64,000 bases of DNA from Alphaproteobacteria bacterium. Lineage in GTDB: Bacteria; Pseudomonadota; Alphaproteobacteria; Micavibrionales; Micavibrionaceae. The notes below the pieces were generated by a model, which saw only the letters and a program-made list of their open reading frames with translations, was not told the DNA's origin and did not search any database. Position numbers and translations under genes: made by a program. Location: contig JAJRSA010000009.1 in the NCBI GenBank assembly GCA_024279035.1, positions 1 to 64,000 of the forward strand. Direction: 5' to 3'. The first letter of the stretch is position 1, and every line of letters starts with the position of its first letter. Shown piece after piece: positions 2,922 through 54,358 of the stretch.

Positions 2922-3890
2922 CTAAAGCTTACGTTTGCGCAAACGTCTTTTTGGAGCTTCTCCCGGTTGGAGGCGTCGCCTATGTTTACGATCAGGCAAG
3001 ACTCGTCCCCATGCAACGCATGGAATCATATAATCAGGTTGCGTATTGTACTGAGAAATTAAAATATTAAGAGCACGATCTATTTCTGCAGGGTTTTTTG
3101 CTTTTTTAAAGGCTCCATAATGCATCCCTTTTTGAACCAGACAGGTGTCAATTTCGGCCATGTTTGCTCCGATCATGTCATGTGCCATGGTGTCTCCAAC
3201 CATCACTGCCTGCCCTGGAAAAACTCCTTTTTCTTGTAAAAGATCAATACATTTCTGAAAAACAGGCTTATAAGGCTTCCCAATAGAATGAATAACCCCG
3301 CCATATTGACGCAATTTCCGATTCAAAAGCCCAATACCCATCAAATAATTCGCAGACAAAAGGCCTCGACTATCAGGCACAGCAAAAATTGTCTTTGTGC
3401 CATATTTCACAATTTCCTTAAGATTATCATCAAGATCTATAACAGGACGATCCAATCGATCCCATCCCGTCATCAAAATAAAATCGGCCTCTTTCACAGT
3501 GTGAACACGCTCAATCTTAAGCCCTGTCATAAAACAGTGAGGCTCGCCTGCGTGAAAACTGTAATATTTTTGTCCAAGATCTTTGAAAACACCCTCTTCC
3601 GATTGGTTTTCAATTCCTTCTGCAATCGTTTCTCCCACGGTAATAATCTTGTCGTAGAGACTCGGTCCAATCCCTGCCTTCTTGAGTAATTCTTTATTCT
3701 CTTTTGCCCGCAAATCAGAATTAGACAAAAGAATAATATATTTTTTCCGACTCCGAAGCTCTTTCAAACAGTCAACAACCCCATCAAATGCTTTCTTTCC
3801 ATCATGGAGCACCCCCCACTGATCAAGAATAATCCCCATATAGCTATCTGAAATATCAGAGAGACCTTCACAGAATTTAGTTTTTGTCAT
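2922..3890 (-). CDS. HAD-superfamily class IIA-type hydrolase (TIGR01459-like)
   Basis: 322-aa predicted phosphatase of the HAD superfamily. The nucleophile motif is ILDQWGVLHDG (DxWG), followed by LLSNS and, near the C terminus, VMVGDTMAHDMIGANMAEI for the metal-binding aspartates. This matches a subfamily mostly seen in Alphaproteobacteria; its substrate is unknown to me. The last 30 or so residues after the HAD core form an unusually basic tail (PDRKHRRRLQPGEAPKRRLR) that the catalytic fold does not need. The gene reads into the msbA-like gene. Confidence 0.85.
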   Translation of the reverse strand: MTKTKFCEGLSDISDSYMGIILDQWGVLHDGKKAFDGVVDCLKELRSRKKYIILLSNSDLRAKENKELLKKAGIGPSLYDKIITVGETIAEGIENQSEEGVFKDLGQKYYSFHAGEPHCFMTGLKIERVHTVKEADFILMTGWDRLDRPVIDLDDNLKEIVKYGTKTIFAVPDSRGLLSANYLMGIGLLNRKLRQYGGVIHSIGKPYKPVFQKCIDLLQEKGVFPGQAVMVGDTMAHDMIGANMAEIDTCLVQKGMHYGAFKKAKNPAEIDRALNILISQYNTQPDYMIPCVAWGRVLPDRKHRRRLQPGEAPKRRLRKRKL

Positions 3891-4005
3891 AACAAACTTT
3901 ACTTTAATCTTAAGACAATTGATTCTCTAACCAGAGGCTAGAATACCCCAGAGATATTATCATTCTCTTAAGATTTGTCATCCTCTTAAATGAAAAAACA
4001 TTTGA

Positions 4006-4028
4006 TTGACATAGAACTTTATTTATAG
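4006..4028 (+). promoter_or_regulatory. Possible sigma-70 promoter for the 4065 gene
   Basis: A perfect -35 hexamer TTGACA lies at 4006-4011, followed by an AT-rich stretch with a weak -10 candidate TACCTT 17 bp later, inside the 3891-4064 gap. The -35 is good and the -10 is poor. Confidence 0.3.
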
Positions 4029-4064
4029 TACCTTTTTTTGAATTCAAATATGAAAGAAAGCTAA

Positions 4065-4466
4065 ATGAGCCCCACTTCTTCCCTTAAAGCGCATTTTTTT
4101 GAAACTGACCAAGGATCAGATTTTGCCACAAACTTACTTTTAAATGTTTTAAAAGAGGTTAAATCAGGCTTAACCTTCTCAACTAGCAGAATTGAAATGG
4201 CAGGCCTTGAACGTAGCCATGTGCGGTATACTTTAGGCTATTTGCAAAAAGAAGGGGAAGTAGAACTAATCAATAATGATCATTGGGTGGCGAACCTCCG
4301 TGTTTATCAAGACATACACGTTATAACCTCAAAAGGAGTGGCTCTCTTAGGCGCCCTTCAAAGTGGTGATTTCTCTCAAGGGATTCATTTTTCAACTTAC
4401 ATGGCCCAACAAATTGATTTTGAAGACATGCTACAAGTAATCAAAAGCGATCAAAGATATCACTAG
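4065..4466 (+). CDS. Hypothetical protein, possible winged-helix fold
   Basis: 133-aa soluble protein with no signal peptide or membrane segment. I do not recognise the family. Residues about 30-75 (LKEVKSGLTFSTSRIEMAGL, then VRYTLGYLQKEGEVELINND) have the spacing of a small winged-helix module: helix, helix, then a 'level of effect' strand pair. A DNA-binding role is therefore possible but unproven. It stands alone on the plus strand, and its stop codon overlaps the relic encoded on the opposite strand at 4463. Confidence 0.6.
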   Translation: MSPTSSLKAHFFETDQGSDFATNLLLNVLKEVKSGLTFSTSRIEMAGLERSHVRYTLGYLQKEGEVELINNDHWVANLRVYQDIHVITSKGVALLGALQSGDFSQGIHFSTYMAQQIDFEDMLQVIKSDQRYH

Positions 4467-4531
4467 ACCTCCCTCAAATCAGAAATATAAACCTTAAGAC
4501 CCTTCTTAATTTCTGGCTCTAAAATATACAT
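4463..4531 (-). pseudogene. Relic of a duplicated alanine-symporter 3' end
   Basis: On the minus strand this encodes MYILEPEIKKGLKVYISDL followed by four more codons and TAG. The last 20 residues of the symporter at 6396-7850 read MYLLAPEIKKDLKAYISDLG. At DNA level 4476-4531 matches 6406-6461 at 48 of 56 bases, and most differences fall in codon third positions. This is therefore a diverged copy of the symporter's 3' end without the rest of the gene. Just upstream, SDILDGYMG resembles SDISDSYMG at the start of the HAD hydrolase (2922-3890); that part may be coincidence. Confidence 0.6.
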
Positions 4532-4553
4532 TCCCATATAGCCGTCTAAAATA

Positions 4554-6392
4554 TCACTCATGCATTCTATAATGGAAACCTGTTTGGACATCGGGGAGAG
4601 ACTCATCACGAATAAAATAGATATAACTTGTTTCTGGATTCCAGCTAAATGGCTTCTCTGTAAATGGATTGTAGAGACTTTCTGAAGAACTGGATAAAAA
4701 ATCGGGCATATTTTCTGGAGAGATTTTCTGCTCCTTTGCATTCATCCACAAAATGAGAATACGTTGGCGTGCCGTCATCTCGTGTCCATTTTGGAGGAGC
4801 TCTCCTCCTTTTAAAAAGCCAGAAAAAAGAAGTCTCCCGATAAGATTATACCCAAAATTTGAGGTCGGCTTTGAATAGTCTTCATATCTTTTTTCTATCA
4901 AATTAAGGGCTTTTTTTAGATTTTGAGGGTGTTCATGCGACAATAAGAGCATGTCTTGAGCAAACTCAAAAAACTTGTTTTTTGTCGCATTGGGTTTCAA
5001 AAAAAGACTATTAGGCATATCGTCCAACCCTACCATACGCATTACATTATATTCTGCACGTAATGTTTCTTCTATGTTCCAAATATCATGAAGAAAGCTC
5101 TTGTCTAATAAGTTTTTAATCTTGTCTTTGTATGAAAAAATAAGAATTTTTTCTTCATCAAGAAGAAGAGGTAGAATTTTAAGGTTAGAAGAGTACATAA
5201 CCATAAATATTGCATTTTCAATAAGAGATCCTTTTCCTCCCAGCATTTTTTGAAGAAAGAGAGTATCCTCTATCCACCCTTGGATTGCCTCTTCTCCTTC
5301 TCCTTTTTTTGTCATTTCAAGCCAATAAACAGTGAGTAACTTATGAATCGAGATAAGAGTTTGTCCACTTCCTTTTCCTAGAGAATTCCCTACGCCATGA
5401 TTTTCATATTGATACAACCCAACATAACGATCTATTAGTTCTTTATTCTCCTTAAAATATTCTCTAATGACCTGAGATGAGGCACATTCTACTTTTTCTA
5501 AAATTTCATCATATGATCCACAAAAATTATAAGTCTCTCCTTTGAATTTTAAAGGGTCTACTTCTTCTACCTTATGGTCCCAAACTTTTAGCCCATATTT
5601 GTAGGTATTTTTTTCTCCTTGGGGGGCCGTTAGTCCAGCCCACGAAACATAGACATTATTTTCTGTCTTAAAGGGATCATCATAGAAGAACGTATCAACG
5701 TTTGAGTTCAGTTCCTTATCTGGGATATGATAGGCTATAAAGGTGATACATAAGAGCGAAGAAATATATGACAGAAACAAACCAACGCGTTTTATTTTTG
5801 TTTTGGACGGATAATCATCATTTGATATATAGACAAGCCTTACCTTGGAAATCAAATCATACAAAGATGTCTTTTCTTTTGTGAATATAATAGCTAAAAA
5901 ACAAAGTAAGTGGAGTAAATATGCCACACAAATAATTGTTATAAAAACAACATTTCCTAGCCCTAGATAGGAAAGACAAAACCCTAGACTAAAAGCTCCT
6001 TCTCCTAACTCATTTTTACACAGAGTGTACTTTTCTAGATTTTCTTGATAGACATCGGAAAGAAGATACGTAACAAAAGACAGTAAAATCAAGAGAACAG
6101 GCAGGGAGGATATCGTAGCATGATATATTTTCTGTTTTTTAGAGGCTATATTTCCTTGTAGATCTACAAGATGAACTCTCTCTTCTTTCTGACTCCATAT
6201 TCTATGTTTTTTAAGAGAAAATATATTCCTTTGTAAGGAAGCCGTGCATCCCAAAAATATTAAAAGACCCCCTAACCATAGCCATGTTCCTCCTAAAAAG
6301 AGGCAAATAAATCCAAACAAAAAATAAGAAAAATAAGAAACATAGATGTTTCCTGTTGCAAGAGTGCGATCTAAAAAAGAAACATATTTCAT
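4554..6392 (-). CDS. Hypothetical multi-pass membrane protein, 612 aa
   Basis: I do not recognise this protein. The first 220 residues hold about five hydrophobic segments (roughly 17-33, 35-52, 92-112, 144-170 and 203-222). After these comes a long hydrophilic domain of some 390 residues, probably outside the membrane, with no motif I can name. The ATG at 6392 lies three bases after the symporter stop codon and uses ribosome-binding sequence inside the symporter's last codons (GGGAAGA), so the two are probably translated together. The gene is flanked by the true 3' end of the symporter gene and a diverged copy of that end (4476-4531). This suggests it was inserted behind the symporter by a recombination event. 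Confidence 0.7.
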   Translation of the reverse strand: MKYVSFLDRTLATGNIYVSYFSYFLFGFICLFLGGTWLWLGGLLIFLGCTASLQRNIFSLKKHRIWSQKEERVHLVDLQGNIASKKQKIYHATISSLPVLLILLSFVTYLLSDVYQENLEKYTLCKNELGEGAFSLGFCLSYLGLGNVVFITIICVAYLLHLLCFLAIIFTKEKTSLYDLISKVRLVYISNDDYPSKTKIKRVGLFLSYISSLLCITFIAYHIPDKELNSNVDTFFYDDPFKTENNVYVSWAGLTAPQGEKNTYKYGLKVWDHKVEEVDPLKFKGETYNFCGSYDEILEKVECASSQVIREYFKENKELIDRYVGLYQYENHGVGNSLGKGSGQTLISIHKLLTVYWLEMTKKGEGEEAIQGWIEDTLFLQKMLGGKGSLIENAIFMVMYSSNLKILPLLLDEEKILIFSYKDKIKNLLDKSFLHDIWNIEETLRAEYNVMRMVGLDDMPNSLFLKPNATKNKFFEFAQDMLLLSHEHPQNLKKALNLIEKRYEDYSKPTSNFGYNLIGRLLFSGFLKGGELLQNGHEMTARQRILILWMNAKEQKISPENMPDFLSSSSESLYNPFTEKPFSWNPETSYIYFIRDESLPDVQTGFHYRMHE

Positions 6393-6395
6393 GTT

Positions 6396-7850
6396 CTATC
6401 TTCCCAAATCAGAAATATAAGCTTTCAAATCCTTCTTAATCTCTGGCGCTAAAAGATACATCGCTAAAATGTTTGGAATGGCCATAGACAGAATTAACAT
6501 ATCTGAAATTCGAATAATATTTTTGAAGTCAGACACACAGCCGAGAATGACGGATAGCAAGAAAATAATGTGAAACCCAATGATGACAGGTTTTTTATGT
6601 CCGAATAAAAAGATCACGCATTTTTCCGCATAGTAAGAAAAGGTGATAAGACAAGAATAGGCAAAGAGAAAGACAGCCAGCGTTAACACGTAAGGAAACC
6701 ATGGAATGCCGTGTGCAAAGGCACGCGATGTAAGCTCTACGCCCGCTAATCCTTCTGTATTTTGATATTCACCTGTCACTACAATCACAAGCGCCGTCGT
6801 GGTGCAAATAATAACTGTATCAATAAAAGGCCCAAGCATACTCGCAAATCCTTGCTGAATAGGAGAATCTGTCTTTGCAGACGCATACATAATACCCGCT
6901 GTTCCTAACCCCGCTTCATTCGAGAAAGAGGCACGCCTAATTCCTTGAATCAAAGCTCCTATAAAGCCCCCTACTCCTGCAGCGGGAGTAAACGCTTCCA
7001 TAAAGATGGTGGCGATACCACTGGGCACAGACGATATATTCATGAGCAACACAATAAGACCTGCCAAAAGATAAAGACCTCCCATAAAAGGAACAAGTTT
7101 TGATGTTACTTTTCCTATAGATTGAACACCTCCAAGCGTGACTATTCCTGTGAGGACAGCAAGGATAAGGCCAAAGAGCCAGCCATAGCCTTGTAAGAAA
7201 CTCTCTTCTCCTCCTGTGACTTCTACAAATTGGATGTAAGCTTGGTTAGATTGAAACATCCCTCCTGCGCCGATAGCTCCACCAATACAGGAAATCGCAA
7301 ATAAAACCGCAACAAAAGAGCCTACATAAGGCATTTTTAACTGTTGAAAAGCCTCCTTAATGTAAAACATTGGCCCTCCGAATATTTCTCCTGTCACTTC
7401 GGATTCTTGTCGATATTTGACACCTAATGTCACCTCAAGAAATTTAGAGGACATCCCCAAAAGCCCCATGATAATCATCCAAAAGGCAGCCCCTGGGCCC
7501 CCAATAGAAATCGCAATCGCCACACCTGCAATATTTCCAAGCCCGACCGTCCCTGATAAAGAGGCCGTTAAGGCTTGAAAACTGGTGATTTCTCCCTTCT
7601 GAGAGGGGTCATCGTATTTTCCGCGAACAATATCAATTCCATGCTTAAAAAAACGAAAATTGATGAATTTAAAGTAAAGCGTAAACAAAATAGAGGCCAT
7701 CGCCAGCCAAATAATAAGAAGAGGAACGGAATGTTCCGTTACGGTCTCTGTCCCCATCTCAAATTTAACAGCATAAAAAATAGTACTTTCAAGAAAAGTT
7801 GCTATTTCTCCAACATAATAATCAAGATTTTCTATTAGGGGTGTGGACAT
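6396..7850 (-). CDS. Alanine or glycine:Na+ symporter (AGCS family)
   Basis: 484-aa inner-membrane transporter, the normal length for AGCS carriers, which import small neutral amino acids with sodium. Characteristic stretches include SLSGTVGLGNIAGVAIAISI near residues 90-115, the GGPGAAFWM segment, and RRASFSNEAGLGTAGIMYAS near the middle. Roughly ten hydrophobic segments follow one another. The start ATG at 7850 precedes MSTPLIENLDYYVGEIATFL. It is the upstream member of a pair with the 612-aa membrane protein. Its final 20 codons are duplicated at 4463-4531. Confidence 0.92.
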   Translation of the reverse strand: MSTPLIENLDYYVGEIATFLESTIFYAVKFEMGTETVTEHSVPLLIIWLAMASILFTLYFKFINFRFFKHGIDIVRGKYDDPSQKGEITSFQALTASLSGTVGLGNIAGVAIAISIGGPGAAFWMIIMGLLGMSSKFLEVTLGVKYRQESEVTGEIFGGPMFYIKEAFQQLKMPYVGSFVAVLFAISCIGGAIGAGGMFQSNQAYIQFVEVTGGEESFLQGYGWLFGLILAVLTGIVTLGGVQSIGKVTSKLVPFMGGLYLLAGLIVLLMNISSVPSGIATIFMEAFTPAAGVGGFIGALIQGIRRASFSNEAGLGTAGIMYASAKTDSPIQQGFASMLGPFIDTVIICTTTALVIVVTGEYQNTEGLAGVELTSRAFAHGIPWFPYVLTLAVFLFAYSCLITFSYYAEKCVIFLFGHKKPVIIGFHIIFLLSVILGCVSDFKNIIRISDMLILSMAIPNILAMYLLAPEIKKDLKAYISDLGR

Positions 7851-25510: not shown

Positions 25511-25597
25511 TATTTACCACGGATGAACACAGATGAACACGGATATAAACGACAAGAAGAACAATCCGTGTCTATCTGTGTTCATCCGTGGTAAATA
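25511..25597. repeat. Long inverted repeat of the TTTACCACGGATGAACAC type
   Basis: TATTTACCACGGATGAACAC and its reverse complement bound an 87-bp palindrome. Each arm contains internal repeats of GATGAACAC-like units. A half copy recurs at 53517-53548. It is a dispersed repeat in the gpmI-pnp gap; no gene is inside it. Confidence 0.7.
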
Positions 25598-25604
25598 AAG
25601 AAAC

Positions 25605-37700: not shown

Positions 37701-37789
37701 CCAGATCCTGAAATAAAGTCAGGATGACTAAATTTTTAGTTTTGCACCCCAGTTATTGTCATCCTGAACTTGTTTCAGGATCTCCTAGA
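37701..37789. repeat. Double-hairpin repeat, TCCTGAA family, copy L
   Basis: Hairpin one spans 37703-37728 (ATCCTGAA...TCAGGAT), hairpin two 37758-37783 (GTCATCCTGAA...TTCAGGATC), with 29 bp between. The nuclease stop codon (complement of 37785-37787) lies within the conserved TCTCCTAGA end of this copy. Confidence 0.8.
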
Positions 37790-38063
37790 ACAAGTCCTCA
37801 TACAAATCATTCCATTCTGGGTTATCCGCTTCAATTAAATTAATCTTCCAATCTCTATGCCAGTTTTTTAGCTGCTTTTCTCTTAATATAGCATGCTCTG
37901 GGGCATCAAATATCTCATAATAAACAAGTAAGTCTGCGTTATATTTTGCCGTAAACCCTTTATAAATTTTCTCTTTATGCTCCCAAATACGCTTTTGTAA
38001 TTCAGATGTTACGCCAATATATAAAACACCTTTTTTCTTATTTGTCAGCATATACACGTACAT
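37785..38063 (-). CDS. GIY-YIG nuclease-domain protein, intact
   Basis: 92-aa single-domain GIY-YIG protein: MYVYMLTNKKKGVLYIGVTS supplies the YVY-YIG core, KRIWEHK the conserved Arg and His, then LVYYEIFDAPEHAILREKQL with the metal-binding Glu. The tail NPEWNDLYEDLF is typical of short UvrC-N/YhbQ-like members. I start at ATG 38063 after a GGGGA site that lies directly beside the flanking hairpin; eight more codons are open only from a TTG inside the repeat. Such proteins nick or cut DNA. The placement between identical repeats suggests it acts on them. Confidence 0.88.
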   Translation of the reverse strand: MYVYMLTNKKKGVLYIGVTSELQKRIWEHKEKIYKGFTAKYNADLLVYYEIFDAPEHAILREKQLKNWHRDWKINLIEADNPEWNDLYEDLF

Positions 38064-38071
38064 TTCATTCC

Positions 38072-38157
38072 CCAGATCCTGAAACAAGTTCAGGATGACA
38101 ACTTTTAGGTTTATACCTCACTCCCGTCATCCTGAATTTATTTCAGGATCTCCTAGA
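38072..38157. repeat. Double-hairpin repeat, TCCTGAA family, copy R
   Basis: Hairpins span 38074-38099 and 38126-38151, with 26 bp between. The copy ends in TCTCCTAGA exactly like copy L and in the same orientation, seven bases before the sufT stop codon. It also supplies the sequence just upstream of the GIY-YIG start. Confidence 0.8.
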
Positions 38158-53452: not shown

Positions 53453-53516
53453 AATGTATTCTCTTCAAATCCAGAGTTTTAAGAAAGTAAGACTAGCATG
53501 GATCAAACTAAAAAAA

Positions 53517-53548
53517 CATCCGTGTTCATCCGTGTTCATCCGTGGTAA
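53517..53548. repeat. Half copy of the GATGAACACGGAT repeat
   Basis: ACATCCGTGTTCATCCGTGT then TCATCCGTGGTAAA: three tandem TCATCCGTG units, reverse complement of the arms at 25511-25597. It ends directly before the ATG of the ygjP-like gene. Confidence 0.65.
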
Positions 53549-53557
53549 AAAACATGA

Positions 53558-54313: not shown

Positions 54314-54358
54314 CTCACCATTGTCATCCTGAACTTGTTTCAGGATGACAATGGTGAG
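54314..54358. repeat. Perfect 20-bp-arm palindrome of the TCCTGAA family
   Basis: CTCACCATTGTCATCCTGAA and its exact reverse complement enclose a five-base CTTGT loop. It sits between the convergent ygjP-like and ruvX genes. It is the core hairpin of cassette 1 repeats, extended by matching flanks. It may also act as a bidirectional terminator, although it lacks T-runs. Confidence 0.75.

Follow-up and report, generated by a model that had tools for sequence, protein, structure and literature searches.

The window (the whole stretch of 64,000 nucleotides that was analysed) carries two conserved neighbours, an AGCS sodium:alanine/glycine symporter gene and a HAD-type hydrolase gene. Between them lie a 612-aa membrane gene, here called MEM612, a relic of the symporter 3' end and an orphan open reading frame, ORF133 (Table 1). 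MEM612 starts 3 nt past the AGCS stop. Its GC content is 34%, compared to about 41% for its neighbours, and its codon score is at the low end of the local genes. ORF133 is convergent with the relic ORF, and the stops of both are located within the palindrome CTAG at 4463-4466.

Table 1. Features of the AGCS-HAD region and the MEM612-family loci (positions refer to the window; L numbers are loci in other genomes)
Feature	Position	Strand	Basis
HAD-type hydrolase gene (TIGR01459), intact, source of the 24-nt fragment	2922..3890	-	TIGR01459 3e-38
HAD promoter-like element ATGACA-N16-TAATAT	3954..3981	-	overlaps ancestral AGCS stop
Candidate third, strongly decayed AGCS-tail remnant	3990..4046	-	beside ancestral AGCS stop
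ORF133, orphan ORF of 133 aa, flanked by relic and HAD	4065..4466	+	open reading frame, codon score
Putative 32-aa in-frame fusion ORF, MSDILDGYMG joined to MYILEPEIKKGLKVYISDLREV and a stop	4463..4561	-	read from sequence
Relic copy of AGCS 3' end	4475..4531	-	49/57 to functional copy
HAD 5' coding fragment, directly at MEM612 stop	4533..4556	-	21/24 identical to 3835-3858
MEM612, putatively acquired 612-aa membrane gene, RDD-like family	4554..6392	-	missing at the AGCS-HAD junction of congeners
AGCS sodium:alanine/glycine symporter gene, intact, 484 aa	6396..7850	-	PF01235 4e-118; TIGR00835 6e-120
Functional copy of 57-nt repeat (AGCS 3' end)	6405..6461	-	repeat alignment, genome-wide search
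MEM612-family loci	4554-6392; L105, L034, L110, L107, L037, L035, L036		RDD-like membrane part and soluble part

The direct repeat and the HAD-AGCS joint

The original prediction described direct repeats, both encoding EIKK.LK.YISDL on the minus strand, with the 612-aa gene exactly between them, and both statements were borne out. The repeat is 57 nt long with 49/57 identical positions (86%), and the MEM612 ORF is separated from the two copies by 12 and 22 nt. It was the longest direct repeat of more than 80% identity within the window. A search of the window's own genome (G000; 40 contigs, 1.82 Mb) with the relic gave the AGCS end as the single significant match (E 2.1e-12). Chance or convergent similarity of 57 nt is a negligible explanation at such an E value (2e-12) and with a best repeat score of 41, where shuffles reached 17 at most.

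Eight nucleotide changes separate the relic from the functional copy, four of them replacing and four silent. Seven codons differ; four replace the residue (L/I, A/E, D/G, A/V) and three are silent (E, L, K), so that the differences are not mostly synonymous, as had been stated. The D/G change is at a position where almost every AGCS tail in the family has D. The relic shares 49/57 positions with the window's own AGCS and 35 and 42/57 with the AGCS of two congeners, whose tails share 41 and 43/57 with the functional copy. Since the relic is nearer to the window's AGCS than the congeners' tails are to either copy, the duplication is local and postdates the divergence of this lineage from the congeners sampled. 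Derivation of the relic from a functional homologue, as suggested earlier, is not supported, given this closeness and the replacements at conserved positions. From the alignments, the relic reads as a decaying local duplicate, for which such replacements are as expected, and it would be a non-functional stub.

The description of the relic as an AGCS end was correct for 4475-4531 and missed a further 24 nt of HAD start joined to it. This fragment matches codons 12-19 of the neighbouring HAD gene. It is on the right strand and borders the MEM612 stop on one side and the AGCS scrap on the other, and the repeat copies consequently do not directly abut the insert. Against HAD and the region upstream of it, the score of the fragment was reached by 3/20,000 random window 33-mers (p ~1.5e-4) and by 0/2,000 dinucleotide shuffles. 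The fragment is only 24 nt and such matches are not rare genome-wide; its weight comes from position and strand. The HAD piece continues in frame into the AGCS piece, and the ATG of the putative fusion ORF overlaps the MEM612 stop (ATGAGTGA). The divergence from the source is 8/57 (14%) for the AGCS scrap and 3/24 (12.5%) for the HAD scrap, and this similarity is consistent with one event.

In head-to-tail tandem duplications, a novel joint can form at microhomology. The joint observed here is alike in that the start of HAD meets the end of AGCS at 2-3 nt common to both sides (HAD GGGGAT / AGCS GCGATG). Downstream sequence is thereby attached head to tail to upstream sequence, and this order, the reverse of the genomic AGCS-then-HAD order, is a signature of head-to-tail duplication. 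Unlike a simple tandem duplication, the first repeat unit is largely replaced by MEM612; it lacks the ancestral spacer and codons 1-11 of HAD, and has MEM612 in their place.

The AGCS-HAD junction in related genomes

The search for genomes without the 612-aa gene at this site, as proposed in the original prediction, was successful. In the congeners G001 (deposited as Micavibrio sp. UBA1850) and G002 (deposited as Alphaproteobacteria isolate OFTM283), AGCS is followed by about 90 bp and then HAD, without MEM612 and without ORF133; the window HAD is 80% and 76% identical to those of the congeners. AGCS also adjoins HAD, without MEM612 or ORF133, in G005, G006 and G029. The empty AGCS-HAD site was seen in other species only, and its presence in the congeners indicates that this lineage has gained about 2.4 kb. 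The minus-strand C-terminus of the window AGCS reads MYLLAPEIKKDLKAYISDLGR followed by the stop. It ends YISDLGR, compared to YIS..RG in the congeners, and its final codons and stop, GGA AGA TAG, are unlike the congeners' RG and stop. Insertion of a gene behind the symporter with a replaced 3' end, which had been offered as one explanation, is supported by both observations. No second AGCS tail was found behind AGCS in 24 relatives, with L060 barely above the shuffles (16 vs 15).

In the majority of the other relatives examined, for example at L048 (G011), a protein of approximately 1,200-1,360 aa is encoded between AGCS and HAD. It has coiled-coil-like matches and is missing from the window's genus and from G005, G006 and G029.

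The spacer beside HAD retains the ancestral last AGCS codons, and a promoter-like element was found there when the window was scanned. The same element with the same spacing was read from the sequences of G001 (ATGACA-N16-TAAAAT), G002 (ATGACA-N16-TACACT) and G005 (GTGACA-N16-TAAACT). The window element is probably the HAD promoter, untouched by the insertions.

The MEM612 family and ORF133

MEM612 is not an orphan as first supposed, since distant relatives of it exist; the profile of its family was matched in 27/142 genomes of the order. The family consists of proteins of about 600-700 aa, patchy in distribution and fast-evolving, with mostly 15-35% identity, and is without a named function. 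No Pfam, no PHROG and no convincing NCBIfam match was obtained for MEM612, and no match to it was observed on viral contigs, in a genome-contig collection or on plasmids. The family resembles the RDD family (PF06271) in its N-terminal membrane region, and one of eight members, not MEM612 itself, matches the RDD profile at 1e-10. It differs from RDD in the missing Pfam match of MEM612 and in the soluble part of about 350 residues which follows the membrane region. Modelled from single sequences with AlphaFold, MEM612 and ORF133 reached a mean pLDDT of about 40.

Three congeners carry MEM612-family genes at three loci: the AGCS-HAD junction in the window, near radC in G001 and beside cvpA in G002. 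The window's own genome lacks an insert at the two latter sites, where a SulP-like transporter gene is directly followed by radC and an acetyl-CoA-synthetase-like gene is directly followed by cvpA (both names as read from the sequence). The nearest sampled relative of MEM612 is found in G109, of another genus (35% identity, support 100/100), and the G001 and G002 members fall in other clades. Low GC, codon score, tree grouping and differing loci favour repeated horizontal gain. MEM612 would thus have arrived horizontally, and the family apparently reached the three congener loci by independent gains. The branch of the G001 member is long and its clade placement tentative, which makes the independence of that gain less certain. 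At 12 other MEM612-family loci, no convincing flanking repeats like those of the window were found; a 28-nt gapped flanking match at the G046 locus (p 0.017) is expected given that many tests.

No relative of ORF133 was found in 385 genomes of the class, nor on plasmids, phages or viral contigs. Its codon score is at the low end of the local genes, yet far above that of its own shadow frames. An origin of the ORF133 region from MEM612 or from congener DNA was rejected. A second MEM612 copy, sought as a start remnant behind the relic, was likewise rejected, since its alignment did not outscore shuffles (p 0.77 for the local and 0.04 for the anchored alignment).

Beyond ORF133, the candidate third tail was compared with AGCS tails in a fixed register, which gave p 0.001 against random window segments and 0.008 against shuffles. 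The similarity ends at about the same distance as that of the main repeat, and the identity is about 23/54 for this outer tail compared to 49/57 for the inner one. A third AGCS tail is suggested by these values only, and they are too thin for a claim. If the tail is real, ORF133 would also be bracketed by AGCS tails.

Origin of the arrangement

The most probable reading (probability of about 0.68) is that the locus is a scar left by a gene gain specific to this lineage, in which the AGCS-HAD junction was duplicated head to tail and an acquired MEM612 was inserted. The ancestor would have had AGCS, about 90 bp and HAD. A segment from the last ~19 AGCS codons to about HAD codon 19 would have been duplicated head to tail, and the joint, where the start of HAD runs in frame into the end of AGCS, would be the present relic. 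In the first copy, MEM612 would fill the space that begins just within the 3' end of AGCS and stops at the HAD fragment; in the second, ORF133 would lie between the relic and the promoter of HAD. The symporter gene would have remained in frame, its last two residues being new, and the HAD promoter would have been spared. Duplication and insertion may have been a single linked event, either an unequal or illegitimate crossover at the 2-3 nt microhomology or a Campbell-type integration of a circle (AGCS end-MEM612-HAD start); this order and mechanism we infer from the layout. What speaks against such a history is that the missing spacer and HAD codons 1-11 in the first copy need an extra deletion or replacement.

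The main rival is insertion with long target duplication, in which MEM612 entered the AGCS 3' end, the 57-bp target was duplicated and the 24-nt HAD piece was added as templated filler, with no prior tandem duplication. The direct repeats do bracket MEM612, and Helicobacter pylori restriction-modification genes have been reported with this pattern (Nobusato, Uchiyama, Ohashi & Kobayashi 2000, Gene 259:99, as reported in PMC1643837 and PMC3031569). The extra filler step this requires, and a HAD piece which is found in the order and orientation of a tandem joint and in frame with the AGCS scrap, make it a rather unlikely account. A gene without a visible transposase, located between direct copies of a target which is single and uninterrupted in relatives, is common to both cases. 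Unlike the described cases, the cargo here is an RDD-like membrane protein and not a restriction-modification system, a fragment of the next gene is present at one junction, the copies are 14% diverged and the empty site is known from other species, not strains. The locus works like an insertion with long target duplication, but is not a clean member of that class.

It is far less probable that the AGCS 3' end served as attachment site of a site-specific integrative element, with the relic as the displaced 3' end. Direct repeats at a gene 3' end whose end has been replaced, and the possible third tail beyond ORF133, would fit such an element. However, no recombinase was found among the identified genes at 0.6-14 kb, where the identified neighbours are housekeeping genes, and only MEM612 and ORF133 would lie inside the element. 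The 24 relatives without a second tail and the 12 other family loci without comparable flanking repeats also argue against it. Furthermore, the insert was unmatched on plasmids and viral contigs, ORF133 was unmatched on phages, and the HAD piece would be left unexplained. Even harder to sustain is recombination between tandem full symporter genes, put forward in the original prediction, which would have left one gene and a 3' stub. A stub of the AGCS 3' end does exist, but no intact tandem AGCS pair was present in 57 genomes, HAD and not more AGCS lies upstream of the stub, and MEM612 would be left without explanation. The HAD joint refutes this proposal in the main.

A more speculative and quite improbable extension is that genes have landed repeatedly at the 3' end of AGCS. 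First ORF133 and afterwards MEM612 would each have brought a fresh AGCS tail, pushing older, more decayed tails outward, by an unrecognised recombinase-free mechanism which spreads RDD-like membrane genes between loci.

As a whole, the locus is a neat and fairly ordinary record of gene gain and offers little as a new mechanism. Its value is that of a readable case, in which a gene has been added between two conserved genes of a bacterium with neither of them broken; the symporter has received a replacement end, the hydrolase retains its own promoter, and the junction scrap can be dated relative to the congener split. The patchy, fast-evolving membrane family, found at differing sites in sister species, merits a name and a function.

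Two other repeats were observed in the DNA. A 23-nt palindrome-like repeat, TCATCCTGAACTTGTTTCAGGAT, is found at 37705-38149 and 54324-54346, with 70 copies genome-wide at up to two mismatches (control 0). It very often forms inverted pairs with starts 43-44 nt apart, resembling a REP/BIME-like doublet. A 42-nt repeat containing TGTTCATCCGTGGTAAA is present twice in the window, at 25557-25598 and 53511-53552, with 83% identity over 42 nt.
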